Part shown: positions 47,033-63,670 of the stretch, piece after piece
How positions within the stretch are numbered: the first letter of the stretch is position 1
Layout of the letters: each line of letters starts with the position of its first letter
Source of the DNA: Streptomyces halobius
GTDB lineage: Bacteria > Actinomycetota > Actinomycetes > Streptomycetales > Streptomycetaceae
NCBI RefSeq assembly: GCF_023277745.1
Contig: NZ_CP086322.1
Span: 6,634,001-6,698,000, forward strand
Length of the DNA: 64,000 bases
Reading direction: 5' to 3'
The notes under the pieces: model-generated
The model's database searches: none
What the model saw: only the letters and a program-made list of their open reading frames with translations
Told to the model about the DNA's origin: nothing
Program-made: the position numbers and the translations under genes

Positions 47033-47063
47033 AGGCCCCCTGGAGTGATTTTCCAGGGGGCCT
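47033..47063 (+). terminator. Terminator after tRNA-Val
   Basis: AGGCCCCCTGGA and its exact complement flank GTGATTT, followed by TTTC, 12 nt after the tRNA. Confidence 0.85.
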
Positions 47064-47891: not shown

Positions 47892-47893
47892 GC

Positions 47894-48136: not shown

Positions 48137-48152
48137 GTCAGGTCCTTCCTGG

Positions 48153-49597: not shown

Positions 49598-49626
49598 GGC
49601 GATCAGCTCCAGTGAGGAGGACTCGG

Positions 49627-49646
49627 CCCGGCCCACAACCAGCGGC
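49627..49646 (-). promoter_or_regulatory. Start-associated repeat element, copy 1
   Basis: Read on the minus strand: GCCGCTGGTTGTGGGCCGGG, ending 29 nt before GTG 49597. A TACACT hexamer stands 10 nt upstream of it. Identical to copies 2 and 3. Confidence 0.8.
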
Positions 49647-49673
49647 AGCGCAAGGGAGTGTAGCTCCCCACCG

Positions 49674-50324
49674 TCAGGACTCGTCGGGCCCGCCAGCCGA
49701 GTGGATGGCGAGCTTGAACTGCGCGAGGATGAGGGTCTTCGCGCTGCTGGCGTTGTGACCGACGCGCAGGGCGAGGGGCACGCCCGGATGGACGAAGATC
49801 TCGTGGTGCTTGGTGAAGACCTGGACCCCCGGGCTCGGTGGCCGGTGGTCGGTACCCGTCGTATCGACCGGGTCGGAGGTCAGGCCGAGCGGGTCACGCA
49901 CGAACTGATCGCGCAGCTCCGTGTAGTCGCCGGCCTCCCACTGGATGGCCGCGGTCAAGTGCCCCCAGCCGTCTTTCGACGGCCAGATGAGCCCTGAGCG
50001 GTCCTCGGTCTTCCAGTCGACGACCTGATAGCCGTCGGGCTGTACCGCTTCGTGCATGCCGTGCGGGTCGTACGGCTCAACGTCGTACGGAAACCTGACC
50101 ACGTGGTACTGACCGTCAGTGGGAATCGTCTGCGGCTGGCTGGTGCTGCGCATCAGGGAGACGACCTGGACGGCCGCGGGCGCTTCCGGCGGCGGAGGCT
50201 GTTCGGCCTGCGCCACGCTGATCGTGTAGGGGTCCGTCGCGGAACCGTTGCCGACGACGATGACACCGTCGCCGGCCACGAGGGCGCAGGCGCAGGAATC
50301 GGTGCCACATCCGCAGCGAGCCAT
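49674..50324 (-). CDS. Phage minor tail protein (paralogue B)
   Basis: A 216-residue protein. The N-terminus MARCGCGTDSCACALVAGDGVIVVGNGSATDPYTISV is cysteine-rich and glycine-rich, and a Pro-rich linker follows. The rest is homologous to the product of the next downstream gene. The cysteine pattern CGCGTDSCAC recurs in other tail genes here (MASVCACGD, MSRMGCGSH). The ATG at 50324 has GGAAGG upstream and is 29 nt after element copy 2. Role in tail assembly or adsorption inferred from context. Confidence 0.78.
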   Translation of the reverse strand: MARCGCGTDSCACALVAGDGVIVVGNGSATDPYTISVAQAEQPPPPEAPAAVQVVSLMRSTSQPQTIPTDGQYHVVRFPYDVEPYDPHGMHEAVQPDGYQVVDWKTEDRSGLIWPSKDGWGHLTAAIQWEAGDYTELRDQFVRDPLGLTSDPVDTTGTDHRPPSPGVQVFTKHHEIFVHPGVPLALRVGHNASSAKTLILAQFKLAIHSAGGPDES

Positions 50325-50353
50325 GACAGGGCCTTCCCGTAAGGGGGAGTCGG

Positions 50354-50373
50354 CCCGGCCCACAACCAGCGGC
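50354..50373 (-). promoter_or_regulatory. Start-associated repeat element, copy 2
   Basis: Identical 20-nt core to copy 1 on the minus strand, ending 29 nt before ATG 50324. TATGAC and TACCAT hexamers lie 4 and 12 nt upstream. Confidence 0.8.
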
Positions 50374-50667
50374 GCATGTCATACAGATGGTACGTCCTGC
50401 TGGTCTGGCCCTTCGCGTTCGGGCGGGCGCGGTCGGACTCGCGCTTGGGTGCGAGTCCGGGCATAGCTCACCTCCACCGGCCGATCGGGAGGCTTGAAAT
50501 TGTCGGTACGGGCACCTGATTAATTCTTCTTCCCATTATCTAAGCGGAGAAATACCGGAAATGCCGTCATGCGGTGGTTCTTGCCCACCCATCGCAGTAC
50601 GGCACGCCCGCGCCGCTGCGACTTCTCCAGGGCGTCGGGGAGCTCGGAGCGGCGAAGAGGACAGCTG

Positions 50668-50673
50668 TATAAT
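50668..50673 (+). promoter_or_regulatory. Consensus -10 box for the WXG cargo genes
   Basis: A perfect TATAAT in otherwise GC-rich sequence, 64 nt before the WXG-like gene start. No good -35 box stands 17 bp upstream. It points away from the tail operon. Confidence 0.4.
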
Positions 50674-50736
50674 CAAACTTTTCTCTGCGGAGGGGGGCCA
50701 TCCGTAGAGAGCATCGGTATGAAGGGGGATCGTGAA

Positions 50737-51117
50737 ATGGCATGGGGGACCACACCCACACCGCCCGCTTCGGGGGCAGGGAACAACATCACCCAGATCC
50801 AGAACCCGGCCAAGCTGCGCCAGTGCGGGCACCGCTCCATGGAACTCGGGGGTGAGCTGCACACCAAGGGGCACAGCGCCAAGGACGAGACTGCAGGGGC
50901 CGCTGCGGCCCTCAAGGGTGCTTCCTGGGACGGCGATCTGGGCAGGGCCATGGACAAGACGACGGAGACCTGGGGCGATCAGGTCGAAAGCCTCGTACGG
51001 ACGATGCGCGAGATACACGCCAAGTGCACCGCTACCGCTGACAACTACGAGCAGACCGAGCACGAGAACGAAACGGCCTTCAGGGTTGTTCCGCAGTCCC
51101 CCACGCCGTTTGGATGA
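50737..51117 (+). CDS. WXG100-like (ESX-type) small helical protein
   Basis: A 126-residue protein in two predicted helices with the turn LKGASWDGDLGRAM; WDG is a WXG motif. Long amphipathic helices flank it. WXG100 proteins pair with larger type VII secretion substrates, and such a protein follows 11 nt later. ATG 50737 has AGGGGGA 8 nt upstream; ATG 50719 is an alternative. It is on the strand opposite to the tail genes on both sides, so it is cargo, not structure. Confidence 0.7.
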   Translation: MAWGTTPTPPASGAGNNITQIQNPAKLRQCGHRSMELGGELHTKGHSAKDETAGAAAALKGASWDGDLGRAMDKTTETWGDQVESLVRTMREIHAKCTATADNYEQTEHENETAFRVVPQSPTPFG

Positions 51118-51128
51118 GGTGAGAGACC

Positions 51129-52136
51129 ATGGTGACGTACGAACAGCTCTACCACCTCGATCTGAAGAAGCTGAACGCCGCTGTCGAGGCGTGGGACACC
51201 CAGATACGCCAACTCCAGTCCCTGGATGACGCGTTCACCTCCGACGTGTCAAAAACATTCCAGCAGGCCGGTTGGCGGAGCGGCGACTTCACCTCCGTGA
51301 TGGCGGCCGAGAAGGTCAAGGAAGCCGACAGGGAGCTGACTGAAGCCGTCGCGGAAGCCAAGGGCATACGGGGCATCTTGCGCGACGCCCACGATCGACT
51401 GAAGAAGCACAAAGCGGACCTCGTTGAACTCGCCGATGTCGAGGCACCGAGCCGGGGCCTGGTAGTCAGTAGCACCGGGCGTGTTCATGTCCGGAACGAC
51501 CCTGCAAAAGATCTAACGGGCCTGGATGACGCCGAGAAAAAGGCGGTTCTTGCCGCTCAGAAGGAGAAGGTCGACGACGTCACCGGCAAGATCGAAGACA
51601 TTCTCTTGCGCGCAGGAGCGACGGATGAACTTTGCGCAGAGGCCCTCCGGCGCAACGTAGACGGAAAAGCAGAGAGCGGCTTCAACTCAACGGTCTACAC
51701 CACGGTAAACTCCTACAAGAAGTCGATGAAGGAGACCCCGGAACGGGTGAGCACGCAAGGAGCGCCTTTCGGGAGTAGTACGATTAAGCCCGTCGCGGAG
51801 TTTTTGAGCTACAAATCTTGGATAAACGGCCTGGGTGCGGCCGTCCACGGAAAGGGGAGTGAGGCGTGGAATTATTTCCTAGGAGGGACTGGCTCGGCTG
51901 CCGTATCGGCAATGAGCACAGACGCAGGAAAGTCCCTGACGGGATGGAACCGTGCCGGTAGCGTCCTGAACAAGGCTGGAAGCGGAATACTGAAGTTCGG
52001 CTCAAAGGTGTTCGGATTCCCTGTTTGCCTAGCCGCCACAGGGATCGACTACGCCTACACCCCAGAAGCCGATTCAGCGAAGCTAGAAAAACACACCAGG
52101 ACAGTGGCCCCGGGAAAGGTCAACGCAAAATACTGA
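51129..52136 (+). CDS. LXG/WXG-like putative type VII secretion substrate
   Basis: A 335-residue protein with a long helical N-terminus (1-110: LDLKKLNAAVEAWDTQIRQLQSLDDAF...QQAGWRSGDFTSVMAAEKVKEADRELTEAVAEAKGIRGIL), typical of LXG/WXG exported proteins. A middle helical region and a C-terminal part of about 110 residues follow, with glycine- and alanine-rich hydrophobic stretches (GGTGSAAVSAMSTDAGKSL, GILKFGSKVFGFPVCLAATGIDYAYTP). The C-terminus could be membrane-active or a toxin; I do not recognise a named domain. Base composition and AT-rich codons differ from the tail genes, suggesting separate acquisition. Confidence 0.62.
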   Translation: MVTYEQLYHLDLKKLNAAVEAWDTQIRQLQSLDDAFTSDVSKTFQQAGWRSGDFTSVMAAEKVKEADRELTEAVAEAKGIRGILRDAHDRLKKHKADLVELADVEAPSRGLVVSSTGRVHVRNDPAKDLTGLDDAEKKAVLAAQKEKVDDVTGKIEDILLRAGATDELCAEALRRNVDGKAESGFNSTVYTTVNSYKKSMKETPERVSTQGAPFGSSTIKPVAEFLSYKSWINGLGAAVHGKGSEAWNYFLGGTGSAAVSAMSTDAGKSLTGWNRAGSVLNKAGSGILKFGSKVFGFPVCLAATGIDYAYTPEADSAKLEKHTRTVAPGKVNAKY

Positions 52137-52158
52137 CCCAGGATGATTGGCATCTCAG

Positions 52159-52413
52159 ATGAATGAAGAACCCGAGGGTAGCGAAAAAACCAAGAAAACA
52201 CCCTTCCTCAACCGCGTCATCAGCAAGTCCGGGAAACGTCACCCTTTCCTGATGCTCGCCCTTTCCCTCTTCGCTATAGTTATCGGGATAGGCGGAGTGC
52301 AGAGCATGTTCACTCCTGAGATGAATCACGCCAAGTCCGCTCTCAATATACTAGTGGGACTGGGTGGCGTCATTTATCTGGCAGCTCTTATCGCAGATCG
52401 AAAGAAGAAGTGA
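52159..52413 (+). CDS. Small two-segment membrane protein, possible immunity partner
   Basis: An 84-residue protein with a charged N-terminus (MNEEPEGSEKTKKTPFLNRV), two hydrophobic segments (PFLMLALSLFAIVIGIGGVQSMF and ALNILVGLGGVIYLAALIA) and a KKK end. It lies 22 nt after the LXG-like gene. Small membrane proteins in this place often protect the producer from the preceding toxin; this is inference only. ATG 52159 is preferred; TTG 52147 is in frame. Confidence 0.55.
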   Translation: MNEEPEGSEKTKKTPFLNRVISKSGKRHPFLMLALSLFAIVIGIGGVQSMFTPEMNHAKSALNILVGLGGVIYLAALIADRKKK

Positions 52414-52513
52414 TTCTTCCGTGTCGGTTTGGCGCGTTCAAGCGGGGGTGAATCTCCGTCCTGCAGAACCTGCGGTCATGCCAGCGTCCGCTCGCAGCCT
52501 TCGGCGCGGACAG

Positions 52514-52547
52514 CGTCCGGACAGTTCCGGGGACTGCTGTCCGGACG
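52514..52547. terminator. Hairpin between the WXG cargo and the tail adhesin gene
   Basis: CGTCCGGACAG pairs exactly with CTGTCCGGACG around a 12-nt loop, between converging genes. Confidence 0.75.
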
Positions 52548-52553
52548 GTGTCC

Positions 52554-53273
52554 TCATCCGTAGAGTTCGATGATGACGATGCCGTTCCCGCCCTCGGTTC
52601 CGGGAGTACTGGAGTCGTCCCGGGCGTAGCCTCCGGCCGCGCCACCGCCGTAGCCTCGGGGGGCGCCGCCACCGTTGGATGCCCGCTGGAAGCCTCCATG
52701 GCCCAGGTGGGATTCACCGCCCTCGCCCGCCAGGCCGTCAGTCCCGCTAAGGCGGATGCATCCGCCTCCGGCGCCGCCGCCGCTCGCCCAGTCGCCGCTT
52801 CCGGCGAGCGGGGCGGGGATACCGGAGTAGCACTGCAAAGACGTCCCGGACGTCATGACCGCGGTCCCACCCGCGCCGCCGTTCGCGACGACGAATCCAC
52901 CGAAGGAACTGTTCCCACCGGCGCCGCCGTCGGACGACGTCCCACCGGCCTCACCGCCCGCGCCGACGACGACGGACTCCACCGCACCGAGCGTGGCCGC
53001 GTCGATCAGAGCCTCGCTGTAGCCACCGCCCGCTCCGCCCGGCCGCGTCACCAGCTGGCCGGCAGCGGCTGTCGCACCGGCCGCGCCACCCCCGGCCGCC
53101 TGCACGCGCACCTTGATGCGCGCCAGCCAGGGGTAGTCGTCTTTGACGAACTGGTGGTTCCCGGGCTCTTTGACGTACACGATGTCGCGCAGCCCTTGAA
53201 CGCCCGGCTTGAGGCAGAGTTCACCGTCGTTGTTGACCTCGAAGTAATCGCCGCATGCGCAGACAGACGCCAT
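52554..53273 (-). CDS. Glycine-rich phage tail fibre / adhesin-like protein
   Basis: A 239-residue protein. The N-terminus MASVCACGDYFEVNNDGELCLKPGVQGLRDIVYV is cysteine-containing; from about residue 80 the protein is glycine-rich with Gly-Gly-Gly blocks (GAGGGYSEAL, GGEAGGTSSDGGAGGN, GGGAGGGC, GHGGFQRASNGGGAPRGYGGGAAGG) and ends NGIVIIELYG. Such glycine-island domains form tips of tail fibres and adhesins. The ATG at 53273 is 32 nt after element copy 3. Confidence 0.82.
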   Translation of the reverse strand: MASVCACGDYFEVNNDGELCLKPGVQGLRDIVYVKEPGNHQFVKDDYPWLARIKVRVQAAGGGAAGATAAAGQLVTRPGGAGGGYSEALIDAATLGAVESVVVGAGGEAGGTSSDGGAGGNSSFGGFVVANGGAGGTAVMTSGTSLQCYSGIPAPLAGSGDWASGGGAGGGCIRLSGTDGLAGEGGESHLGHGGFQRASNGGGAPRGYGGGAAGGYARDDSSTPGTEGGNGIVIIELYG

Positions 53274-53305
53274 ACCAGGCCCCTTTGTGGGATGTCAGTT
53301 CAGCG

Positions 53306-53325
53306 CCCGGCCCACAACCAGCGGC
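53306..53325 (-). promoter_or_regulatory. Start-associated repeat element, copy 3
   Basis: Identical core to copies 1 and 2, ending 32 nt before ATG 53273. TAGATT stands 6 nt upstream and overlaps the stop of the preceding gene. Confidence 0.8.
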
Positions 53326-53334
53326 CCCACCAAT

Positions 53335-53736
53335 CTACTGCCGCGGTGCGGCAGTCAGGTGGACGGCGATGCCCGGCCCGGCCGGGGCCCGGCGCGGCAC
53401 GAGCGTCCACACCCGCACCGTCACCGCCTGCGGAGTCGCGTCCTCAAGTACCGCCAGCAGCAGCCCGTCCCCCTCAACGAGCGCGGTGACAACGGGCGGT
53501 GCGTCCAGCGGGGCCGGGAGCGTCCACGTGGCGCGACTGTCCTCGCCGGTGACGACCACGGCGGCCGGCACCCGGCCCGGCGGCCCGGGGAGTGCCTTGA
53601 CAGCGGGCTCAGCCTCGGGTGTGGGACGCCGGCGGCGCCGGTTCGGCATGGTGCGCGTCCGGCGGTCCAACTCTTTGAGCACGTCGACCAGGGGGTTGTC
53701 GACGCTGCGCCGGGCGGCGGATCCTCGACGGGCCAC
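53335..53736 (-). CDS. Phage minor tail protein, small
   Basis: A 133-residue protein: VARRGSAARRSVDNPLVDVLKELDRRTRTMPNRRRRRP (basic N-terminus), a Pro-rich linker, then a beta-rich part (PPVVTALVEGDGLLLAVLEDATPQAVTVRVWTLVPRR). The latter resembles the short sandwich domain at the end of actinophage tail proteins. GTG 53736 lies 2 nt after the upstream stop, with AGGAG 7 nt before it, so it is coupled to the large tail gene. Confidence 0.72.
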   Translation of the reverse strand: MARRGSAARRSVDNPLVDVLKELDRRTRTMPNRRRRRPTPEAEPAVKALPGPPGRVPAAVVVTGEDSRATWTLPAPLDAPPVVTALVEGDGLLLAVLEDATPQAVTVRVWTLVPRRAPAGPGIAVHLTAAPRQ

Positions 53737-53738
53737 GG

Positions 53739-54785
53739 TCACACTCCTGACGGGAACAGCTGCACGGCCACGCTCTCGCCGTCGCCGTCTTCGGCGACTT
53801 TGAGGCCCTGGATCTTGAGGGACTGGGCGATGGTGCGGCATGTCGTGGTCGTGGTGACGTCCACGCACCAGCCGGGCACCAGTGAGGCGATGTCGACCGC
53901 GGCGTCCGGGGCGAGGGTCGTTTCCTGGCTGGTGTCGATGACCACCGGAGTCGGCACGCTGCCGCGGAGCTTGGACCGGGCGGCCGCAAACGCCGACGGG
54001 TTGTCGAGGATGGACGTCTCCTCGGTGGCCCGCTCCAACAGCCCGTAGTAGTCGTGTCGTCCGCCGGCCACGCCTTTGATGTCCGGGTCGCTGTCGTCCT
54101 CGGGTTGCTTGCCGTGGACGACCCACCGGGTCGCGAGGTTGGTGCCGTCGCCGATGACCTGGAGCCCGGCCGGGAAGTCGGCGTCGGTCAGCGAACCGAC
54201 CCGCGCGCAGTGGTCTTCCGGCATGAGCAGGATTGTGGAGCCGACGGCGGTGAAGTCCAGGCCGGTCTCCGCCAGGTCGCGCAAGTGATCACCAATCTGC
54301 CCGACGTCCTGCTGGTACTCGCGGTCGCCGCGGATACGGGTCGGGGCGACGACTTCGACCGTGTGGCCGGGGTCGTCGGGCTCGAAGCCGTCAGCGATGA
54401 GCCATGTCGCGATCTGGGTGAGGTCGGTTGCCCGGAAGCGGATGTCCTCGTGCGGGAGGCGCCGGTCGAGCCAGCCCAGGACGTCGATAGCCGCCAGCTC
54501 GACGGTGTCGCGTCTCCACGTCGGCGTGACGATGGGCCCCTCCCACACGGGAACGCTGCCACGGAGCGGGTCGCTGCGGTAGATCACGAGTTTGTGTCGC
54601 CACTCGCGGACCCGGCCGAGCGCGGCGCAGCAGTCCCCCTCGGGTTGAATGACCACCTTGGCCGTGCTGACGTCGTCGAGGGCCCTGGTCCACTCCACAC
54701 TGAGCAGCGTGTCCGCCTCGGTGACGACCGCCCCGCCGCGGTCGACGATCCGCACGGTGTGGCTGCCGCACCCCATTCGTGACAT
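53739..54785 (-). CDS. Phage minor tail protein, large
   Basis: A 348-residue protein beginning MSRMGCGSHTVRIVDRGGAVVTEADTLLSVEWTRALDDVSTAKVVIQPEGDCC. The fold appears mixed beta, as in siphovirus tail-hub proteins (LVIYRSDPLRGSVPVWEGPIVTPTWRRDTVELAAIDVLGWLDRRL is typical of the hub region). Position behind the Dit-like protein supports a tail-tip role. The ATG is 29 nt after element copy 4. It is the first late gene to the left of the second cargo island. Confidence 0.8.
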   Translation of the reverse strand: MSRMGCGSHTVRIVDRGGAVVTEADTLLSVEWTRALDDVSTAKVVIQPEGDCCAALGRVREWRHKLVIYRSDPLRGSVPVWEGPIVTPTWRRDTVELAAIDVLGWLDRRLPHEDIRFRATDLTQIATWLIADGFEPDDPGHTVEVVAPTRIRGDREYQQDVGQIGDHLRDLAETGLDFTAVGSTILLMPEDHCARVGSLTDADFPAGLQVIGDGTNLATRWVVHGKQPEDDSDPDIKGVAGGRHDYYGLLERATEETSILDNPSAFAAARSKLRGSVPTPVVIDTSQETTLAPDAAVDIASLVPGWCVDVTTTTTCRTIAQSLKIQGLKVAEDGDGESVAVQLFPSGV

Positions 54786-54814
54786 GGCCGGGCCCGCCTT
54801 CCTGTCGGCTTCGG

Positions 54815-54834
54815 CCCGGCCCAAAACCAGCGGC
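54815..54834 (-). promoter_or_regulatory. Start-associated repeat element, copy 4
   Basis: GCCGCTGGTTTTGGGCCGGG on the minus strand (one change from copies 1-3), ending 29 nt before ATG 54785, with TAGTCT 10 nt upstream. Confidence 0.8.
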
Positions 54835-55020
54835 GTCCCAGTCGAGACTACCGAGACTGGCCGACAGAGTTCCTTACTGATCACAGTCCCTGAAACCGAG
54901 TCGCACCCAATTGAGAATGGGAGGTGTGCAAGCTGAGGTTGCTGGTCACAGGGCTGGTGTGCGTGGGCATCGGGATGCTCGTGCTGGTCGCTGGCAGGTG
55001 ACTTTGGTGAAGATCGTCGG

Positions 55021-55230
55021 TCATCGGGCGACTTCGCGGTTCGTGAGGACCAGCAAGGCCCTGACCAGGGCGGTCACCCAGGCGGGGTCGGTGCGCACCT
55101 TGCCGAGGACGCGCCAGTTCTTGAGGTGGGCAAAGCCGTGCTCGACGGGTGCCCGGACGGCCGCCAGTGCCGTGTTGGACAGCTTCTGGCCTCGCGTCAG
55201 GGGCCGGTTCCGGGCGGCCTTGTAATCGCA
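55021..55230 (-). pseudogene. Transposase remnant, C-terminal part (IS5-like DDE)
   Basis: The frame reads NRPLTRGQKLSNTALAAVRAPVEHGFAHLKNWRVLGKVRTDPAWVTALVRALLVLTNREVAR, which is the C-terminal end of an IS5-group DDE transposase including the final catalytic Glu region (VEHGFAHLK). The N-terminal two-thirds is missing; upstream codons do not continue the homology. No terminal inverted repeats are apparent. It lies next to the cargo island. Confidence 0.75.
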
Positions 55231-55342
55231 GGCGTGACGCCCCGGAATCGGACCAGGTCGGCGACACAGCAGCCGTGACACAGGGATACCTTGCCCCTCC
55301 CGCCAAGATCCTTAACAGCAGCCCTAGCCCGAAAACGCCAGC

Positions 55343-55374
55343 GGGGCTCCCCGCCCACAAGAACGGGAAGCCCC
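55343..55374 (-). terminator. Terminator of the small membrane protein gene
   Basis: GGGGCTCCCCG and CGGGAAGCCCC pair with one mismatch; on the minus strand CGTTTTCGGG follows within 10 nt. It is about 20 nt past the stop at 55394. Confidence 0.65.
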
Positions 55375-55393
55375 ACCTGCCTGCCTGCGCCGG

Positions 55394-55657
55394 TCAACCG
55401 GCCATGGCCGCCACGACCAGCGCAACAGCCGCACCGCACAGCAGCACCACAAGCGGCCATGCCAGCCAGCCGCGCCCGGTACGCCTGCGCCACAGCACCA
55501 GCCACAGCGCACACGCCGCCACGAACACGACCGTCACACCGCTCAGCTCGCCCTCCCGCCACGCCACCCGCACGGCGCCAGGGTTAGCACCCCATACAAG
55601 GAGCGCAACGAGGACGCCCACGGTCAGCGCACACACCGCTTCCAGCAGCCTGCTCAT
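55394..55657 (-). CDS. Small membrane protein, unknown
   Basis: An 87-residue protein with three hydrophobic segments (AVCALTVGVLVALLVWGAN, VTVVFVAACALWLVLW, WLAWPLVVLLCGAAVALVVAAMAG). It has no known family I can name. Topology is compatible with a holin- or antiholin-like protein, but the prophage already has a holin by the endolysin. AAGGGC stands before the ATG. The 50-residue gene next to it on the same strand may be its partner. Confidence 0.6.
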   Translation of the reverse strand: MSRLLEAVCALTVGVLVALLVWGANPGAVRVAWREGELSGVTVVFVAACALWLVLWRRRTGRGWLAWPLVVLLCGAAVALVVAAMAG

Positions 55658-55690
55658 ACGGTGCCCTTCTTCTCCGGCGTCTCCGTCAGG

Positions 55691-55843
55691 TCAGTGCGCG
55701 GGCGGAACGGACGGCTTGACCTCGACGGTCTCCGTCTTGCGGCCTTCTGCGTCCGTGCTGGTGGACTGCTTCTCCCCGGCCCGGGGACCGGCCACGGACG
55801 CCTGGGGCGCACGGCGGGACGTGATCCACTGCCGCTCCTGCAT
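55691..55843 (-). CDS. Short hydrophilic protein upstream of the membrane protein gene
   Basis: A 50-residue frame (MQERQWITSRRAPQASVAG...KSTSTDAEGRKTETVEVKPSVPPAH-like composition). The ATG at 55843 has GGGAGG 8 nt upstream, and it ends 33 nt before the membrane protein start. The composition is hydrophilic and lysine/threonine/glutamate-rich, unlike its shadow frames. No domain recognised, so this is only a probable gene. Confidence 0.45.
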   Translation of the reverse strand: MQERQWITSRRAPQASVAGPRAGEKQSTSTDAEGRKTETVEVKPSVPPAH

Positions 55844-56043
55844 CCCCCGCGCCCTCCCGCGTTCTCACCTCGACCTGTTGACGGATCGTAGGCGGGGGCC
55901 GGTCGTAGGCGCAGCCGAACCCGGCCGGCCCCGCCCGATGATCTACGCCATGGTCATCGGCCGCCGAACGGCACGAGTATCCAACTCGCTATTCACACCA
56001 GACCTGTGACCTGCGACTTCACGATGCACACCGCTCAATTAGG

Positions 56044-56170
56044 TAAGCGCCGGGACGAAGCGCGGACTGTCCGCGGCCTGCCCGAGGGTGAGGATGATGG
56101 ACAGCGGGCGGCAGCGCCGGTCGGTCGCGAGGTGCATCTTGCTGGTCAGCCCGCCCCGGGCACTGATGCG
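56044..56170 (-). pseudogene. Transposase remnant, internal DDE fragment
   Basis: The minus strand encodes RGGLTSKMHLATDRRCRPLSIILTLGQAADSPRFVPAL, matching the central part of IS5-family transposases (G-G-L-T-K-H-L...L-L-T-G-Q..D). Flanks are non-coding. It may be part of a different insertion sequence from the remnant at 55021-55230, because the fragments are not colinear copies of one gene in this distance. Confidence 0.7.
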
Positions 56171-56419
56171 ACCCGCAGGCAGGTCGCATCAGTGGGGCTC
56201 GGAGCCATGCCGCATCACAGAGCCTCGGCTCCACTTGCCATTCAAAATGGCCCCACAGCCACCTCAACACACATATGGGCCAAGGGTTTTCATCGAGGCT
56301 TCCAAGCCTGGGCGGCCTGGCAACCCGACCGCACTACGGGCTTCACACCACGGGCCTTCATCGGCAAGGGGATTGGGCACCCACACCTCACCCCGCAAAG
56401 GTAAATCGAGCAACTTTCC

Positions 56420-56447
56420 TTTACTCAATCAAAATGAAGTCTATATT
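56420..56447 (+). promoter_or_regulatory. Probable promoter of the secreted cargo gene
   Basis: TTTACT (56420-56425) and TATATT (56442-56447) 16 bp apart, in an AT-rich patch that contrasts with the surroundings. The leader to the GTG at 56583 is about 130 nt. Confidence 0.4.
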
Positions 56448-56582
56448 TGTGCTTTGCGTCACATCTTTCCCGGTCTGGGTCTGGTGGGATGATTCCCGAC
56501 CACGGCACGCATAGCCGCCTCCGTCGCCACAGATGGGGGCTCTTTGCTGTGCCGAAAACACTCATAAAAAGAGGTACGGGGC

Positions 56583-57581
56583 GTGCAGACCAGCACCACC
56601 ATCCGCCGCATGTCCAGCCGACTCACGACCGCCACAGTGGCCGTCACTGCTGGCGCGGCACTCTTGGCCTCTGCCCTACCGGCCAATGCCCAGGCGAACA
56701 CCAGCCAACCGGGGAATGCGGAACAGGCTGCTGCGGTCGTGGAAAAGGCGACCGGGACCGCAGATATCGCCTCCTCGGCGGCGGCCCCGGGCGCGCCGCT
56801 GACCAGGACCGTCACCACCACCGAGGGCAGCGCCGTCACGGTCACCACGCCGGACACGGCCACCGGCACCCTCAAGGCCACCACCGACAAAGGCTCTTCG
56901 CTCGGCCTGACCCTGCCCGGTGCCAAGGCCGTGGCAGGCGTCAAGGCTGGCGTGGGCACCGTCGTCTATCCCGACGCCGCACCCCACACCGACCTCGCCG
57001 TCCAGCCCACCACCGATGGCGGCGCCCGCACCCTGGTCACCCTCAAGGACGCCAAGGCGTCCACCAGTCAGCGCTTCAAGCTCGATCTGCCGGAGGGCAC
57101 CAAGGCCGTCAGCAACGGTGAAGGCGGATACGACCTCATCCGCAAGACTCAGGGGGGCGAACCCGTCCTGGTGGTCGGCGCCATTGACGCGCCCTGGGCC
57201 AAGGACGCTGATGGCAAGAAGGTCCCCACTGCCTACAAGCTCGACGGCAACTCGCTGATACAGACCATCGAGACGAATGAGACCACCGCGTTCCCCGTGG
57301 TCGCCGACCCCGAAGTCAGTTTCGGCTGGAACGTCTACTACAGGTTCAGCAAGGCCGAAGTTAAGAAGTATGCGAGCAAGGTGAAGTACGCATCAGGCGG
57401 CGCGGCCCTGTGCGGATTTCTCGGCGTACCCGCGGCCGCGGTGGCCTGTGGTGTCGTCGCAGGGGGGATCCTGACGCACTTCCAAGGGGTATGGTCCTCG
57501 GCCGCCAGGTACAACAAGTGCGTGGAGGTTAAGGTCGGTTACACAGGTATTTACGGCGGAGCAAAGAACTACAAGTGCTGA
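56583..57581 (+). CDS. Secreted protein with bacteriocin-like C-terminus (cargo)
   Basis: A 332-residue protein with a signal peptide (MQTSTTIRRMSSRLTTATVAVTAGAALLASALPANAQA, cut near 38). A Thr/Ala-rich beta prodomain-like region (about 60-250: TRTVTTTEGSAVTVTTPDTATGTLKATTDKG) comes next. The compact C-terminal domain starts about residue 255 (VVADPEVSFGWNVYYRFSKAEVKKYASKVKYASGGAALCGFLGVPAAAVACGVVAGGILTHFQ...YNKCVEVKVGYTGIYGGAKNYKC). It has four Cys and a glycine/alanine-rich hydrophobic hairpin, which looks like a bacteriocin or toxin module behind a VVADPEV linker. GTG 56583 starts it. Function is inferred. Confidence 0.65.
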   Translation: MQTSTTIRRMSSRLTTATVAVTAGAALLASALPANAQANTSQPGNAEQAAAVVEKATGTADIASSAAAPGAPLTRTVTTTEGSAVTVTTPDTATGTLKATTDKGSSLGLTLPGAKAVAGVKAGVGTVVYPDAAPHTDLAVQPTTDGGARTLVTLKDAKASTSQRFKLDLPEGTKAVSNGEGGYDLIRKTQGGEPVLVVGAIDAPWAKDADGKKVPTAYKLDGNSLIQTIETNETTAFPVVADPEVSFGWNVYYRFSKAEVKKYASKVKYASGGAALCGFLGVPAAAVACGVVAGGILTHFQGVWSSAARYNKCVEVKVGYTGIYGGAKNYKC

Positions 57582-57598
57582 AGGAGAGGTGGACCATC

Positions 57599-57805
57599 GT
57601 GCGCCGATTCCTCACGGCCGAGCCGTCCAACCCGTATGTGGCCAGTGCGCTGGTCACCGTCCTGCTCTACGCGTGCATGCTGATCGTGCGCCTCGTGCTC
57701 TCAGCTTCACTGTTCCAGGCCATGGACATCGCCTTCGTACCCGCGGTATTCGTCCTGGCACTCGCAGTGCGACTCCTCACCGCACGACGGAAGGGCAGAG
57801 TCTGA
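57599..57805 (+). CDS. Small membrane protein, possible immunity to the secreted cargo protein
   Basis: A 68-residue protein, VRRFLTAEPSNPYVASALVTVLLYACMLIVRLVLSASLFQAMDIAFVPAVFVLALAVRLLTARRKGRV, with two hydrophobic segments and a basic end. It starts 17 nt after the secreted-protein stop (AAGGAGAGG before GTG 57599). Gene order, size and topology resemble an immunity protein, but no family was recognised. A GTG at 57575 would overlap the upstream stop and is less likely. Confidence 0.55.
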   Translation: MRRFLTAEPSNPYVASALVTVLLYACMLIVRLVLSASLFQAMDIAFVPAVFVLALAVRLLTARRKGRV

Positions 57806-57826
57806 CCCTACGCCGCTGACACAGCC

Positions 57827-57857
57827 TGCGCCTGTTGCCCATAGGGTGGCAGGCGCA
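57827..57857. terminator. Hairpin between the cargo genes and the cysteine-rich tail gene
   Basis: TGCGCCTGTTGCCC and GGGTGGCAGGCGCA form a 14-bp stem with three G-U pairs around ATA(G), between converging genes. Confidence 0.55.
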
Positions 57858-57909
57858 AGTCAGTTGGGGCTCGGCTTGCCGACTGGTGCCATGCCATTGG
57901 GCGACTCTG

Positions 57910-59349
57910 TCAGTACCCCCGGCCCGATAGCGACAGCACGACCCGGGCGTCCTCGGCGGCCGGGAGGATCGCGTCGGCCTCCAGCAGCACGCAGTAGGAG
58001 TCGCAGTCGAGGAGGGGGAACTGGAGCGGGCCGCCGCCTGGGCCGTACACGTCCGGGGCGCTCTCGCAGCCACCCAGGCACGCCACGTTCGCCCTGCCGA
58101 TCTGCCCGTCGAGGGTCACCACGCCCCCGGCCGGCACGAACCCGACCTCGAACACGGCGGTGGGATTGCAGCGTTCGACGACAGCGACCTCCTCGCACGT
58201 CATGCCTGTGTGGACGGCCGTGCGCTCGTAGATGCTGATCGTCGCGTGCCGCAGGTCCTGGCTTCCGGCGTGTACCTCGATGATCGGCACCGAACCGAAC
58301 CAGCGAGGGAACGCGCTGAGGTCGAGTTCGTATGCCTCACTGTTCACTGCAATGGCTTTGCAATAACAGGTCTGTGGCGGGGGTGGGAGTGGAGGGGCGG
58401 GTGTGCGGCAGCGGGGGTTGTTGCAGAGGTCGTCGGGGTCCGGGCACTTCGCGAGGCGGCAGGTGTCGCACGGGCGCTGTGCGGTGTCCTGGTCCGGCCA
58501 CACGAGTTTGCAGTCCGCGCCTGTCTGAGTGAACTCGACGAGGACGCCGTCCGTGCATGCCGGGGATTCCTCAAGTTCCAGGCAGACGGGCGGAGGCTTG
58601 GGCGGGGCTGTGGGGTCGTGTACGCACCAGGTGATGCACTGGGTGCCGTCGTCCGTGGGCACGGGGACGTCGAGGAGCGGTGTGGGCGTCGTCCACGTCC
58701 ACGGGGTGCCGGCGGTCAGGACGAATTCCACGGTGATCACGTCTGCGCCGACGGAGCACTGGCCGGCGGTGCAGCCGCTGCCGTTGCGGGCGGTGGGGGT
58801 CGGCCCGCTGGTCAGAGCGACCCGCCGCAGGGTGCGCGCGTGCCGGTCGGTGAACTCCTGCGGAGTCATGTCCGCGTTCGGGCAGCAGTTGAAGAAGGTC
58901 AGGCAGTCGCCGCCGCACCCGTCCCCGGTGCAGCCGGTCAGGGCCTCGGCGAGCCAGTGGAGCCCGTATTCGACGCCGCAGCATGTGGCGCCCAGCAGGA
59001 TGCCGGTCACGGTGAGGGTGCGCGGCTGTACGCGGGCCGGGCCGAGCGCAGCCCCGCCGGCCACCGAGGGGGACGGCGTACGGGTCACCGGGTTGTCGTC
59101 CAGGCCGTCGACGGACAGCACCATCAGCCCCGCGAACTGGGCGGATTCGGGGAGGTCCGGGTCGTACCACGGCGCACCGTCGGAGGCCGGGTCGGTGTAC
59201 TCCTCGTCGCCCACCAGGTCCGCGGTGAACGTGTCGCACCGGCAGGCGTCGATGCTGTCGAGTGGGCTGCCGACGGTCTCCAGGTACGCCGCCAGGCGGG
59301 CGTGGTTGGCGATCTCCAGCCCACCCAGTTTCAGGTAGTGCTCCAGCAC
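57910..59349 (-). CDS. Cysteine-rich phage tail protein (Dit/minor tail type)
   Basis: A 479-residue protein beginning VLEHYLKLGGLEIANHARLAAYL. It has an unusual number of Cys residues, over 30 by eye, in several clusters (CTGDGCGGDCLTFFNCCPNAD, CDTCRLAKCPDPDDLCNNPRCRTP). The C-terminus is beta-rich. Actinophage distal-tail and baseplate proteins of this length follow the tape measure gene directly. GTG 59349 lies 9 nt after the tape-measure stop with AAGGAG, so it is coupled. The cysteines may bind metal or form disulphides outside the cell. Confidence 0.78.
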   Translation of the reverse strand: MLEHYLKLGGLEIANHARLAAYLETVGSPLDSIDACRCDTFTADLVGDEEYTDPASDGAPWYDPDLPESAQFAGLMVLSVDGLDDNPVTRTPSPSVAGGAALGPARVQPRTLTVTGILLGATCCGVEYGLHWLAEALTGCTGDGCGGDCLTFFNCCPNADMTPQEFTDRHARTLRRVALTSGPTPTARNGSGCTAGQCSVGADVITVEFVLTAGTPWTWTTPTPLLDVPVPTDDGTQCITWCVHDPTAPPKPPPVCLELEESPACTDGVLVEFTQTGADCKLVWPDQDTAQRPCDTCRLAKCPDPDDLCNNPRCRTPAPPLPPPPQTCYCKAIAVNSEAYELDLSAFPRWFGSVPIIEVHAGSQDLRHATISIYERTAVHTGMTCEEVAVVERCNPTAVFEVGFVPAGGVVTLDGQIGRANVACLGGCESAPDVYGPGGGPLQFPLLDCDSYCVLLEADAILPAAEDARVVLSLSGRGY

Positions 59350-59358
59350 GACAGCTCC

Positions 59359-62300
59359 TTAGATGCCGACCGACACGGCGAGCCGGTTGACGACGCGGTG
59401 AGCGGTCACGTTCGCGTCCCCCACCTCGTACAGGTTCCAGGTGTGGTGATGGACCGCCCGCGGCCCCGAGGCCGCCCCCTCACCGCCGCTCTTGGCGGCA
59501 CCGATGATGTCCAACAAGCCGGACTCCTGGGCGAGTTGGCGGGCGCGCTGCGGCCTGGTGAGCGGGATGATGACTTCCGGCCCGGCCTCGCCGACGAGAC
59601 CGACGACCGGGGAGTTGACGATCCCGCCGTTCGCGAACGGCAGCAGGGACCGCACAGGCCCCGGAAGCCCGCTCTTGATCTTCGACACGATCCGCGAGCC
59701 GATGTTCCCCAGGCTGTTCACGATCCGGCCCGGGAGGCCGGAGAAAAACGACACGATGCTGTCGATCAGCGAGCCCACCGCGCGCCTGGCGGCGCCGACC
59801 GCGTTCGAGAACGCGTTGGCGATCCGGGATCCGATGGAGGAGAGCGCGGATCCGATCCGGCCCGGGAGGTTGGAGAAGAACGATACGACGGAGGAGCCGA
59901 GGTTCCGGGCCGCGGAGAGCGCGGCGGAGCCGGCGGACCGGAAGAGGCTCATGACCTTGCCCGGGAGGGCGGCGAGCGCGGAGCCGATCCGTCCTGGCAG
60001 CGCGGCGAAGAACGACACCGAGGAGGAGACGAACGATGAGATCGCCGAACCGGCCGCGGACGCCGCACGGGAGAACGCGCCGGCGATGGTGGAGCCCAGC
60101 GACGCGAGCGCGGAGAGGATTTTGCCGGGCAGCTCAGTGAAGATCCAGATCACCCCGGCCAGCGCGGTCAGCAGCGCAATACCGATCGCCGCGACCGCGT
60201 TGACGAACAGGTCCACCAGGAGGCCCGGGAGCGCCGCCAGCGCGGAGCCGATCCGCCCCGGCAGCGCGGCGAAGAAGTTCACCACCGACGTGAACGCCGT
60301 ACTGATCCAGGTTCCGATCGATGTCACGAGGTTCGTGAAGAACGTGGAAACCGTCGTCCCGAGCGATGAGAGCACGCCCGTGATCACGCTCGGCAGGTTG
60401 CTGATGAACGTGACCGCTGACGACAAGCCGTTGACCAGCCCGGACAGGACCGTGACCACGCCCTGGATGATCGGGACAACCGCGTTGATGATCACCCAAG
60501 AGGCGAATCCGGCCGCGATCTCCAGGATCGGGGCGAGTAGCCCGATCACGCGGGCGTTCAGCGGTGCCAACGCGGCGAGGAGCCCGGCGAGCGGCGGCAG
60601 GATCGGAAGCAGCGCCTGCACGAGCGCGGCGAACGCCTCGATGATCGGCGGCAGTACCGGCAGCAGCGCGTCCGAGAGAGCAGTGATGACCGGGGCCATC
60701 GCCGTCGCAAGCGTCACGAGGACCCCGGCCACGGTCGACAGAACCGGGGCGAGCGCCTGGATGAGCGAGGCGACCTGCTGACCGATGCCAGCCGCGAGCG
60801 GCTTGATAGCTGTCACCAGCGTCGTGAACGCCTGTGAGATTTTCGGGAGGACCGGCATCAAGGCGTCGGCGAGCGCCTTGATGATCGGTGCGAACAGCGC
60901 CGCGAGGGTCCGGAGCGCTGGCGCGAGCATCTGGGCGATGGTCGCGACGAGTTGACCGGCGAGCGGAAGAATCGGGGCGAGTGCGGACAGCACGGCCCCG
61001 ATGGCTGCCCCGACCGGGGCCAGCGCCGGACCGATCGTGGCGAAAGCCTGGCTGAGCGCCTGCGCGACGACCTGGAGGGACGGGGCGAGTGCTGCGATCG
61101 CAGGCCCGAGCGCATTGATCAGACTCGTCAGCGCGGGGCCGAGGGTGGAGAAGACCGGGGCGAGTGCGGCCGCGATGGCGCCGATCTGCGTGACGACCGC
61201 GGACAGGATCGGGCCGAGCTGGGCCGCGATGGTCCCGACGGTCCGGAAGATGTTGCCGAGAGCCTCTTGCCCCTGCGTCGAGTTGACGAACTCGCGGAAG
61301 GATCCGGTGATCTGCTGGAGGTTGTTGAGGAATCCGCTGCCGGCATCCCCGGCGGCCTTGAACGCGCCGGAGATGATGTGCCCGACGTTCGAGACGATCC
61401 CGCCGAGCTGCTGGAAGACGGCGCGGGCGGTCTCCACCCACGCGACCGCCTGACCGCTGCGGGCGGCCTGCTGGAGGAACGTCGCGAACCGGGCGGCGGC
61501 ACCGGACAGCGCGCTGCCGAGTCGCGCGCCGAAAGCCTCCGAGATGGCGCCGCCCATCTCCAGGAAGCCCTTGACGACTTCCCCGATCTGCGCGCCGAGC
61601 CCGGCGAGTACGGAAGACGTGCCGGCGAAGATGGAGTTGATCGCCGCGATGGAGCGCTGTGCCTGGATCGCCTCCAGCGCGTTGCCGGCGATGACGCCCC
61701 ACTGGGCGGCGACCGAGGTGAGGCCCTTCGTCAGGGGTCCGCTCAGCGCCTCGGCGGCCTGGGTGATCTCCCTTTCGAAGACGCCGAAGAAGGAGTCCTG
61801 TACGGCGTTGCGCAGCGACTCGAACGCGGGCTTGAGGGCGCGGACCTCCAGCGCGGCGGCGCGGGCCTTCGGCGAGAGCTGTTCCAACGACTCCTGGAAC
61901 TGCTCCGCATCCGCTGTCAGGGCCGCTTGGAAGGCGTCCGAGACGCCCATGAGGGCGAGGCGGAGCCCGCCGAGGGCGGCCTGAGCGCCGAGGATCGCCG
62001 CCGGGGCCGCAGCGATGATCCCGACCGCAGGGGCGAGCGCGGCGACGAGGCCGCCGACGGCGGACGCAGCGCTGGCGGCAGCGATGCCAACAGCGCCGAA
62101 GACGAGGAGGCCGCGCAGCGCACCGGCGACTCGGCCGGCGATGCCGCCGAGGCCGGAGAGTGCGCGGCTGAGCCGGTCGTTGTCGACGTTCGCGTTGACC
62201 GGGACGTTGATGCCCGGCGGCCGGTGCGCGCGGATACGGGCGTCGAAGCCGTCGAGGTCCGGGACGACCGGCACGCGGATCTCCAGCCCGCGAAGGACGG

Positions 62301-62610
62301 CCAGGAGTTGCGCCTCGAACCGCTGGAGGTCCGGCTCGATGGGGATGCGGATCGCGTCGAGCTGGGAGCGGAGCCCGGTGAGCAACGCGCGGTTGAAGCC
62401 GCTCAGGTCCGGCTCGACCCTGGCCTGGACGGCCCCGGCCGCGGTGATGCCGCGCTGGATGTTCCGCCGGATCTGCGCGCCGACGGTGCGTGTACCGCGG
62501 TCCAGCGCACGCTCGATGCGGTCCGCGAGGTCGAGCGCATCGGCGACGACCCCGGAGTCATCCAGGGTGATCGTGATCCGGGCTGAGCCGTAGTCTTCCT
62601 CGCCGGCCAC
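59359..62610 (-). CDS. Phage tail tape measure protein
   Basis: A 1083-residue protein. The start VAGEEDYGSARITITLDDSGVVADALDLADRIERAL is followed by long helical and hydrophobic segments (for example LAAALAPAVGIIAAAPAAILGAQAALGG, IAAALAPVFSTLGPALTSLINALGPAIAAL) and near-repeats containing SFFAALPGRIGSALAALPG and SVVSFFSNLPGRIGSALSSIGS. These features and its gene position before the Dit-like gene mark it as the ruler of a siphovirus-type tail. The GTG at 62610 is 27 nt after element copy 5. Length predicts a tail of roughly 160 nm by the usual 0.15 nm per residue rule. Confidence 0.92.
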   Translation of the reverse strand: MAGEEDYGSARITITLDDSGVVADALDLADRIERALDRGTRTVGAQIRRNIQRGITAAGAVQARVEPDLSGFNRALLTGLRSQLDAIRIPIEPDLQRFEAQLLAVLRGLEIRVPVVPDLDGFDARIRAHRPPGINVPVNANVDNDRLSRALSGLGGIAGRVAGALRGLLVFGAVGIAAASAASAVGGLVAALAPAVGIIAAAPAAILGAQAALGGLRLALMGVSDAFQAALTADAEQFQESLEQLSPKARAAALEVRALKPAFESLRNAVQDSFFGVFEREITQAAEALSGPLTKGLTSVAAQWGVIAGNALEAIQAQRSIAAINSIFAGTSSVLAGLGAQIGEVVKGFLEMGGAISEAFGARLGSALSGAAARFATFLQQAARSGQAVAWVETARAVFQQLGGIVSNVGHIISGAFKAAGDAGSGFLNNLQQITGSFREFVNSTQGQEALGNIFRTVGTIAAQLGPILSAVVTQIGAIAAALAPVFSTLGPALTSLINALGPAIAALAPSLQVVAQALSQAFATIGPALAPVGAAIGAVLSALAPILPLAGQLVATIAQMLAPALRTLAALFAPIIKALADALMPVLPKISQAFTTLVTAIKPLAAGIGQQVASLIQALAPVLSTVAGVLVTLATAMAPVITALSDALLPVLPPIIEAFAALVQALLPILPPLAGLLAALAPLNARVIGLLAPILEIAAGFASWVIINAVVPIIQGVVTVLSGLVNGLSSAVTFISNLPSVITGVLSSLGTTVSTFFTNLVTSIGTWISTAFTSVVNFFAALPGRIGSALAALPGLLVDLFVNAVAAIGIALLTALAGVIWIFTELPGKILSALASLGSTIAGAFSRAASAAGSAISSFVSSSVSFFAALPGRIGSALAALPGKVMSLFRSAGSAALSAARNLGSSVVSFFSNLPGRIGSALSSIGSRIANAFSNAVGAARRAVGSLIDSIVSFFSGLPGRIVNSLGNIGSRIVSKIKSGLPGPVRSLLPFANGGIVNSPVVGLVGEAGPEVIIPLTRPQRARQLAQESGLLDIIGAAKSGGEGAASGPRAVHHHTWNLYEVGDANVTAHRVVNRLAVSVGI

Positions 62611-62637
62611 CGGGCAACCTCACGGGGTGTGTGGTTG

Positions 62638-62657
62638 CCCGGCCCAAAACCAGCGGC
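62638..62657 (-). promoter_or_regulatory. Start-associated repeat element, copy 5
   Basis: GCCGCTGGTTTTGGGCCGGG on the minus strand, identical to copy 4, ending 27 nt before GTG 62610. No close -10 hexamer was found. Confidence 0.8.
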
Positions 62658-62694
62658 GTACGGCGGGGCACGCGGGCCCTGCCGTGATTCCAGA

Positions 62695-63045
62695 CTAGCC
62701 GGTGTGCCTCCGGGTGAGCTTGGTGTCCTCCGCCGCCAGCTGGGCCGCGAGGGCCTGTGCCTGGGCGCGGTCCATGCGCATGCCGGGCGGGCGGACGCGC
62801 CGACTGCCGCGTCGGCCGCCATCAGGTGGGGCGTACAACTTCGCCCGGTTCCGCGCCCGTTCGGCGTCGTCCTCCGCCGCCTGGTCCATCGCGACCTCAG
62901 CGGCGTTGAGCATGCGCCTCAGCGGCCACGCGTGCGGGGAGATGCCTTGGAGGGCGAGACTCCCGTCCCACGCCTCCCAGCCGGCGGCGAGGCTTGCGCA
63001 GAGCCGCCAGACGACGTAGGAGGGCGCTGGCCGCCACCGTAGAGC
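62695..63045 (-). CDS. Tail assembly chaperone extension reached by -1 frameshift (gpGT type)
   Basis: In the -1 phase relative to the upstream chaperone, the frame is open from 63045 (just after a TGA at 63048-63046) to the TAG at 62695. It encodes WRPAPSYVVWRLCASLAAGWEAW, DGSLALQGISPHAWPLRRMLNAAEVAMDQAAEDD and a basic tail. Overlapping -1 extensions of the tail chaperone immediately before the tape measure gene are a conserved feature of long-tailed phages. I could not fix the slippery site: no standard XXXYYYZ heptamer stands out. A separate start at Met 62913 is possible. Confidence 0.65.
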   Translation of the reverse strand, partial: ALRWRPAPSYVVWRLCASLAAGWEAWDGSLALQGISPHAWPLRRMLNAAEVAMDQAAEDDAERARNRAKLYAPPDGGRRGSRRVRPPGMRMDRAQAQALAAQLAAEDTKLTRRHTG

Positions 63046-63461
63046 TCAACAACCCACTCCAAGAGCTCGACCAGAACACGGTCAGGCAGACGCAGCGCGT
63101 CCACAACGCGGGCGCCGCCCCGCACCTTTGCCGCGTATGCCTCCGCCTCTGCGAGGTCGCTGAACGACTCCAGCCTCTCGCCGGCCTTCACGACGTCGAG
63201 CCGGGTGAACAGCCTGGCCGACTCTCCCAGCATCAGGCGCGCCAGGAACGCACGCAGCGCCCGGGACACTGCCCGCAGTTGGCCCGAGTCGACATTGGCA
63301 AGATCGTTGATGTCGACACCGATCGGCTGCTGTGCCTCACGCAGCTCGGCATAGGCGTCCATGAAGTCGTCGCCCATGACCTCGGGTTGGAACTCCAAGG
63401 CAGTGTCTCCGACCTGGGCGACGTGCGGCTCGGTATTGAGTGCGAAAGTCCTCGTGGCCAC
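62919..63461 (-). CDS. Tail assembly chaperone (gpG type)
   Basis: A 180-residue protein starting VATRTFALNTEPHVAQVGDTALEFQPEVMGDDFMDAYAELREAQQ, with a mainly helical body (VDSGQLRAVSRALRAFLARLMLGESARLFTRLD, ALRLPDRVLVELLEWVVELYGGG) and a low-complexity end RPPTSSGGSAQASPPAGRRGTGVSPSKASPRTRGR. It overlaps the -1 frame extension. Such chaperones coat the tape measure during tail assembly. GTG 63461 has AAGGAG and lies 30 nt after element copy 6. Confidence 0.8.
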   Translation of the reverse strand: MATRTFALNTEPHVAQVGDTALEFQPEVMGDDFMDAYAELREAQQPIGVDINDLANVDSGQLRAVSRALRAFLARLMLGESARLFTRLDVVKAGERLESFSDLAEAEAYAAKVRGGARVVDALRLPDRVLVELLEWVVELYGGGQRPPTSSGGSAQASPPAGRRGTGVSPSKASPRTRGR

Positions 63462-63491
63462 GGGTGGCTCCTTGATCTGCCCGCACGGACG

Positions 63492-63511
63492 CCCGGCCCA
63501 CAACCAGCGAC
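63492..63511 (-). promoter_or_regulatory. Start-associated repeat element, copy 6
   Basis: GTCGCTGGTTGTGGGCCGGG on the minus strand (one change from copies 1-3), ending 30 nt before GTG 63461, with TACCCT 9 nt upstream. Confidence 0.78.
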
Positions 63512-63670
63512 GCAGCAGGAAGGGTAGCCGTTGGCCGGAACTCACGCGGGCGCCGGTAGCCAGCGCTCTGCAGTGCACTCACGTGTGCCCTCCAGGCAAG
63601 GCCTACGATGTTGTGCGCATGGCGCGTTAAACCGCGGTCACGGTCCGGAGGCGGCTGGCTATGAGCCCCT

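Follow-up and report, generated by a model that had tools for sequence, protein, structure and literature searches.

In cluster K mycobacteriophages, the start-associated sequence (SAS) is a 13-bp motif (GGGATAGGAGCCC) located 3-7 bp before the start codon, where it includes the Shine-Dalgarno core AGGAG, and it is limited to the non-structural half of the genome (PMC3203893, 2011). The extended SAS (ESAS) is a pair of imperfect 17-bp inverted repeats with a spacer, for which the authors saw little support for hairpins in messenger RNA (mRNA) (PMC3203893). In Microbacterium phages of cluster EC, an 18-bp asymmetric motif was found 21-30 bp before start codons, always in the same direction (Jacobs-Sera et al., 2020, PMC7302621). 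Here, a 21-nt element is described that precedes late genes of a Streptomyces halobius prophage and occurs six times in a stretch of 64,000 nt, hereafter called the window (bases 6634001-6698000 of the 9.24-Mb genome). Paired changes among its copies identify the element, with near certainty, as a bulged RNA hairpin and not a DNA motif.

Hairpins read as RNA are known in other systems. The MS2 coat-protein operator is a hairpin of about 20 nt with a 5' bulge, located before a gene start and read by a virion protein; it spans the start codon and represses one gene. In contrast, the element is placed ahead of the ribosome site, with its end 16-34 nt from the start codon, and it precedes many genes. 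The lambda boxB/nut, HK022 put, and HIV TAR hairpins are located near the transcript 5' end and are recognized by a bulge or a special loop. Lambda nut with N, HK022 put, and HIV TAR with Tat act on transcription elongation and number one or two per genome, whereas the element occurs once per late unit and keeps its distance to the start codon.

Like the element, the SAS and ESAS are short repeats of one orientation before the starts of some genes in a phage cluster, and a role in translation initiation was suggested for them. The preliminary description of this locus had compared it to the cluster K repeats, and the likeness holds only for its start-associated position, not for its sequence, distance to the start codon, gene class, or RNA pairing. 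Specifically, the element differs from the SAS in sequence, ends 16-34 nt before the start codon in Streptomyces phages with the Shine-Dalgarno sequence outside it, and serves structural or lysis genes in 248 of the 249 assigned products. Unlike the ESAS, it is one 21-nt hairpin with a co-varying stem. The repeats of Microbacterium clusters EC, EF, EG, and EI are also different, with unrelated sequences and with EC copies mostly among non-structural genes, and the accessible parts of their description were not found to report an RNA structure (PMC7302621). The element was not found among the SAS, ESAS, and other cluster-specific repeats, nor in the accessible parts of PMC9302106, PMC5559632, PMC7302621, PMC12859693, PMC3203893, PMC12699233, and PMC4351075. 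Literature searches, which lay outside most subscription journals, returned no paper with its 17-mer, on phage TurkishDelight, or pairing a Streptomyces phage with a start-associated sequence.

Six minus-strand copies of a 20-mer (GCCGCTGGTTGTGGGCCGGG) had initially been reported, and a scan of the window at up to three mismatches returned these six and no others, all on the minus strand, against a mean of 0.04 and a maximum of 1 in 100 dinucleotide shuffles of the window. Three copies are exact (49627, 50354, and 53306) and three carry one mismatch (54815, 62638, and 63492), and the gaps from 20-mer to start codon are 29, 29, 32, 29, 27, and 30 nt, respectively, as had been described. The TAnnnT hexamers, resembling a -10 promoter element, that had been noticed 6-10 nt upstream of four copies were likewise recovered (TAGATT at 6, TAGTCT at 10, TACACT at 10, and TACCCT at 9 nt). 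The remaining two copies also have one, with TACCAT 13 nt upstream of 50354 and TAGTCT 34 nt upstream of 62638. The element extends beyond the 20-mer by a 21st base, C.

Two more copies were found in the same prophage outside the window, before the capsid gene (6713163-6713183) and the major tail gene (6704906-6704926), and a whole-genome scan identified further copies at 9138620, 1197174, 5642762, and 5649952, all in phage-like sequence. The gp31-gp32 leader (53306 in the window) recurs at genome position 9138620 (L017, about 7621) with flanks identical for 70 nt before and 55 nt after. These flanks indicate that a second, partial relative of the prophage lies 2.4 Mb away in the same chromosome. 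Further pieces were observed at 1.197 Mb and 5.64-5.65 Mb.

Across 295 genomes of the genus, a match at up to one mismatch occurred in 60. Nine genomes had at least three matches within about 60 kb (50 matches in all, by hand count), and the other approximately 60 matches were no more than those of a reversed control pattern (about 76, by hand count). Frequent occurrence in unrelated host genes, named beforehand as grounds for rejecting the first description, was thus not observed, and the search of the remaining prophage and related Streptomyces phages yielded more copies, such as those in capsid and major tail leaders and in TurkishDelight. Among 50,697 phage records searched with two queries, repeated matches were found only in TurkishDelight (two records of one genome, with 6 and 5 places), and other matches were single and weak. 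TurkishDelight carries nine copies, with two tandem pairs accounting for four of them. In IMG/VR, a scan with GCTGGTTKTGGGCCGGG returned at least 120 stretches, which contain 171 distinct sites whose core is fixed by the search pattern. At E<=0.05, a covariance model found matches in 258 of 394 genomes from the class, largely noise from a short GC-rich model; in the best 18 of the top 20 loci, four belonged to the home genus and the rest were coding-like, without a -10 and start.

The preliminary description had proposed aligning the leaders for covariation, and the compensatory stem changes expected of a structured cis-acting RNA were found. Diverged copies carry coupled changes, while a reversed-pattern control gave no site at up to two mismatches. 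In one-sided searches, a 3' base was changed and the 5' side left free, and sites were counted if TAnnnT occurred 4-16 nt upstream. With T at position 21, position 1 was A in 17 of 19 sites and G in two; with A at position 20, position 2 was T in 12 of 12; with A at position 19, position 3 was T in 15 of 15; and with G at position 10, position 13 was A in 14 of 15. Among 200 canonical sites, position 1 was G in all, position 2 was T in two, and position 3 was C in 163, T in 36, and A in one. No C.A was found at 2-20 or 3-19 in 27 one-sided sites supported by a -10, and T.G occurred at 3-19 in 36 of the 200. A common U.G together with an absent C.A in the -10-supported sets is therefore as expected of RNA pairing.

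An alignment of 53 distinct copies (A2), with the structure (((..((((.....))))))), contained standard pairs in 98.7% of its pair cells versus 92.6% when shuffled, and 35 double-sided changes versus 10.2+-4.8, a value reached by none of 500 shuffles. Sliding the pairing partners abolished the signal. This shuffle control leaves the relatedness of the copies in place, a problem of which the one-sided result and the mixed pair types within single genomes are independent. The lower stem is formed by positions 1-3 and 19-21, followed by a 5' bulge of GC, sometimes GAC or GU, and the upper stem by U6.G18, G7-C17, G8-C16, and U/C9-G15. The three-base bulge GAC was seen in nine copies. Loop positions 10 and 13 were U..G in 45 and G..A in eight of the 53 copies, and in a further alignment (A3, n=50) they were U..G in 31, C..G in seven, and G..A in 12, with no other combination. 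U..G, C..G, and G..A are the first-last combinations of UNNG, CNNG, and GNNA tetraloops.

Two other pairings were rejected. A contiguous 5-9/15-19 helix, preferred by single-sequence folding, has a pair 5-19 that fails in 14 of the 53 copies. For a pair 5-18, a scan with position 18 changed gave mostly noise, with C four times, T three times, A twice, and G once at position 5 among the 10 -10-bearing sites listed; its sole genuine-looking copy (L117) allows the alternative reading U6-A18. A search of window positions 47000-64000 with 4227 Rfam models (E<=5) returned seven weak matches, none at an element.

These observations bear on whether the element acts as DNA, either as a part of the late promoter, one of the options first offered, or as an operator whose palindromic ends are half-sites of a dimeric protein. 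The fixed orientation, the nearby -10, and the inverted repeats at the ends would agree with such a site, yet we consider it highly improbable. Several different end pairs coexist side by side inside one genome, T.G is common at 3-19 while C.A is absent in the one-sided sites and occurs once in A2 (L323), and the spacing to the -10 is variable; the conserved feature is the RNA pairing.

The hairpin was also observed in more distant phages by reading upstream of capsid and major tail genes and by a structural descriptor scan. The capsid and major tail proteins of TurkishDelight match 848 and 829 phage records, respectively. Of four Woodruffvirus phages fetched, three (BayC, Xkcd426, and phiSAJS1, but not Mischief19, which was scanned in part) have the hairpin ahead of their capsid and major tail genes. 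All eight Gordonia phages fetched (Twister6, Clown, Lilbeanie, Dexdert, DoctorFroggo, Bizzy, Clawz, and CloverMinnie) carry it ahead of capsid, major tail, tape measure, or lysin genes, and their taxonomy lines place them in eight genera; the choice of Clown and Lilbeanie was made because the Twister6 leader matched both. The capsid leaders of DoctorFroggo, Dexdert, and Lilbeanie contain paired ATC..GAT, and that of Bizzy has one mismatch. One doubtful copy was found in prophi79-1. With TAnnnT upstream, 23 distinct descriptor matches were obtained in 12 of 21 phages, the reversed control not being so filtered.

The placement of the hairpin was examined relative to the -10 and the start codon. 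In the 171 IMG/VR sites, TAnnCT was found within 25 nt upstream in 134, versus 13 in the 25 nt beyond, and on the downstream side of the element a purine-rich zone is followed by the start. A sigma-70-type promoter with a -35 at proper spacing was not observed, as only the -10 is present: when sites were aligned on it, TTGAC within one mismatch occurred in 12 of 250 versus 10.3 expected. The spacer from -10 to element is 6-14 nt in near sites (range searched 5-14) and up to 54 nt elsewhere. Of 441 distinct copies, 338 passed a filter that required a TAnnMT no more than 54 nt upstream and, on the downstream side, a start at 16-39 nt. In these, the element ends 16-34 nt before the start, typically about 27 nt, with a standard deviation (SD) of 3.1, whereas the SD to the nearest -10 is 10.8. 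The nearest -10 is 17-54 nt away in 58 sites, yet 56 of them remain 24-32 nt from the start. In 20 of the 58, a second element copy lies between -10 and element. Another 26 distinct inserts of at least 24 nt were found, 19 of which fold with z<-1.5 (mononucleotide shuffles), the fold typically beginning about six nt downstream of the -10, where a hairpin at the 5' terminus would be expected to begin. The window provides one such case in its tape measure leader. The distance is kept to the start codon rather than to the -10, which therefore points to translation.

Downstream of capsid or major tail genes, perfect hairpins of at least 13 bp (G.U allowed) were found in 15 of 22 gaps in eleven phages, a count made without shuffles. 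Such long 3' hairpins could be terminators, processing sites, or stabilizers. The genes therefore appear to form short units with a hairpin at each end. This arrangement raises the alternative that the element stabilizes mRNA, guarding late transcripts at their 5' terminus from 5'-end-dependent RNases in concert with the strong 3' hairpins of the capsid and tail units. The element, or an inserted foreign hairpin, does begin at about the expected transcript start. We nevertheless regard this role as unlikely, since a shield would not need a conserved bulge and loop or a kept start-codon distance, and the element is retained even where another hairpin holds the 5' end. The same potential terminators, together with promoters lacking a -35 and an element at the transcript start, would also suit control of transcription through the nascent RNA, with the hairpin either serving to load a factor for antitermination or activation or acting on RNA polymerase itself, in the manner of lambda nut, HK022 put, or HIV TAR; antiterminators of the nut and put type suppress terminators downstream. 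Such control is rather unlikely as well, because a fixed start-codon distance would not be needed, every short unit has its own copy, and no N-like gene is shared among the phages compared.

The genes served by the element are late genes almost without exception. The 338 filtered sites precede 317 products of at least 40 amino acids, 249 of which match a TurkishDelight protein: tail assembly chaperone (46), tape measure (43), major tail (40), capsid (37), gp32 (30), gp30 (23), gp29 (12), gp34 (8), tailspike (7), endolysin (2), and a ParB-like protein (1). Capsid, tail assembly, or tail proteins account for 246 of the 249. Among the unmatched products, the first 45 of 68 listed were by eye mostly further tail-fibre or endolysin sequences. 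In the window, the genes behind the copies encode tail assembly chaperone-like, tape measure, minor tail, and gp32-like tail fibre proteins and two gp34-like paralogues. A short, near-identical sequence before mosaic modules, with copies in phage remnants elsewhere in the genome, could also be a recombination joint between exchangeable late-gene cassettes, as was initially suggested. This is extremely improbable, as it leaves the paired changes and the constant placement before starts unexplained. Of the initial interpretation, a start-associated, late-gene-specific element near the transcript 5' end, behind a -10, was retained together with the option of a leader for translation or RNA processing, and the promoter part and the cassette boundary were not.

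Judged from sequence comparison, a cis-acting leader RNA that favors translation of late genes is the best reading, although the translational step and the partner are inferred and the proposal may as readily fail as hold. The transcript would start a few nucleotides behind the -35-less TAnnCT, placing the hairpin near the mRNA 5' end and its own end at the upstream edge of the presumed position of the 30S subunit. At this position the hairpin may influence, in cis, how translation begins: an RNA-binding protein or the ribosome itself would read it as a signal for landing or recruitment, and capsid, tail, and lysis proteins would be made in bulk from short, separate transcription units.

Several observations weigh against a translational hairpin. 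Most copies are also near a -10, and a transcriptional or 5'-end role would explain this equally; start distances were looked for only at 16-39 nt, and they are looser in Gordonia phages (22-51 nt). One-sided sites without a -10 were mixed, with A six times, G twice, and C once opposite T21, T2 in two of 11 opposite A20, T3 in 14 of 24 opposite A19, and A13 in five of 33 opposite G10. In A2, five of 371 pair cells are non-standard, namely A1.C21 (L039), C1.C21 (L530), T1.C21 and C2.A20 (L323), and A3.G19 (L109). The upper stem is almost invariant, its pairs resting on U.G/C-G at 9-15 and one U-A at 6-18, and single-sequence folding energies are unremarkable (z -0.58 to 1.42). The descriptor scan of the 21 phages gave 54 matches versus 30 in reversed sequence. 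No hairpin was found in the scanned parts of Tres, Zemanar, Thora, Hyperion, NoodlelyBoi, TM4, phiAsp2, PIS 136, and Mischief19, all nine scanned in part, with the capsid leaders of Tres, Zemanar, and Thora outside the scanned pieces.

A partner was sought among phage genes. Of the TurkishDelight genes, 104 of 125 were compared (small ones omitted), and none outside the structural module was present in all ten element-bearing records, which were nine virus contigs, possibly fragments, and the home prophage. Those found in all of BayC, Xkcd426 (covered to 34 kb only), Twister6, and Lilbeanie were gp10, portal, protease, capsid, gp18, major tail, adaptor, and tape measure, and no regulator was common to these phages and TurkishDelight over the same coverage. 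Three candidate readers were set aside: the helix-turn-helix protein gp102, which matched 11 of 24 records including TurkishDelight, several of them weakly; gp10, a small and widely shared member of a membrane-protein family of unknown function (phrog_781); and BayC gp55, annotated as RNA-binding, which has no convincing relative in other phages. No regulator being shared, the element may therefore be read by the ribosome, by a virion protein, or by a factor of the host, or different phages may use unrelated readers. More tentatively, the hairpin might serve as an identity tag of late mRNAs, one bulged structure common to phages of several genera that infect Streptomyces and Gordonia and that would cause preferential translation by a trans-acting factor or the ribosome. 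Early regulators would then have been exchanged among these phages, with the tag retained together with the structural module that it serves, and reading could fall to a component of the host or to a virion protein feeding back on its own genes. A second hairpin hiding the Shine-Dalgarno sequence was considered and not adopted: pairing was 0.63 versus 0.56 shuffled (higher in 167 of 256), and mean stem length by a second measure was 4.41 versus 4.20+-0.05 swapped (n=314), both weak signals in which relatedness is not controlled.

A repeat whose nature was unknown becomes a testable RNA structure once its pairs, bulge, and loop are defined, and the late genes of an actinobacterial phage family appear to have one leader RNA in common. 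Laboratory hosts exist for TurkishDelight, BayC, Twister6, and other isolated phages, which makes direct tests feasible. Other start-associated phage repeats merit the same co-variation test, and expression work in Streptomyces and Gordonia may gain a strong late leader from the element.

Table 1. Hairpin elements and associated features of the window (window coordinates).
Feature	Position	Strand	Remark
Hairpin element, 21 nt, T2 variant	63491..63511	-	Leader of tail assembly chaperone-like gene, start 63461; gene identified by tblastn to TurkishDelight gp26
-10-like TACCCT	63521..63526	-	9 nt before element of chaperone-like gene
Hairpin element	62637..62657	-	Leader of tape measure gene, start 62610
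Extra hairpin between -10 and element	62660..62685	-	Tape measure leader; 34-nt stretch folds, -16.5 kcal/mol, z -1.8 (mononucleotide shuffles)
-10-like TAGTCT	62692..62697	-	34 nt before tape measure element
Hairpin element	54814..54834	-	Leader of minor tail gene, start 54785
-10-like TAGTCT	54845..54850	-	10 nt before minor tail element
Hairpin element	53305..53325	-	Leader of gp32-like tail fibre gene, start 53273
-10-like TAGATT	53332..53337	-	6 nt before element of gp32-like gene
Hairpin element	50353..50373	-	Leader of first gp34-like gene, start 50324
-10-like TACCAT	50387..50392	-	13 nt before element of first gp34-like gene
Hairpin element	49626..49646	-	Leader of second gp34-like gene, start 49597
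-10-like TACACT	49657..49662	-	10 nt before element of second gp34-like gene

The prophage seems to end near a tRNA-Val gene at 46950-47022, and an att repeat of this gene was not found in the sequence stretches fetched. Within the late module, the gp32-like and gp34-like units are separated by two genes of the opposite strand (50569-52136, plus strand). One of these is weakly WXG100/EspC-like, below the Pfam cut-off, and the other encodes 335 amino acids with no Pfam match. In the gap before the minor tail unit, the minus strand at 55030-55230 resembles by eye the C-terminal end of an insertion sequence (IS) transposase.

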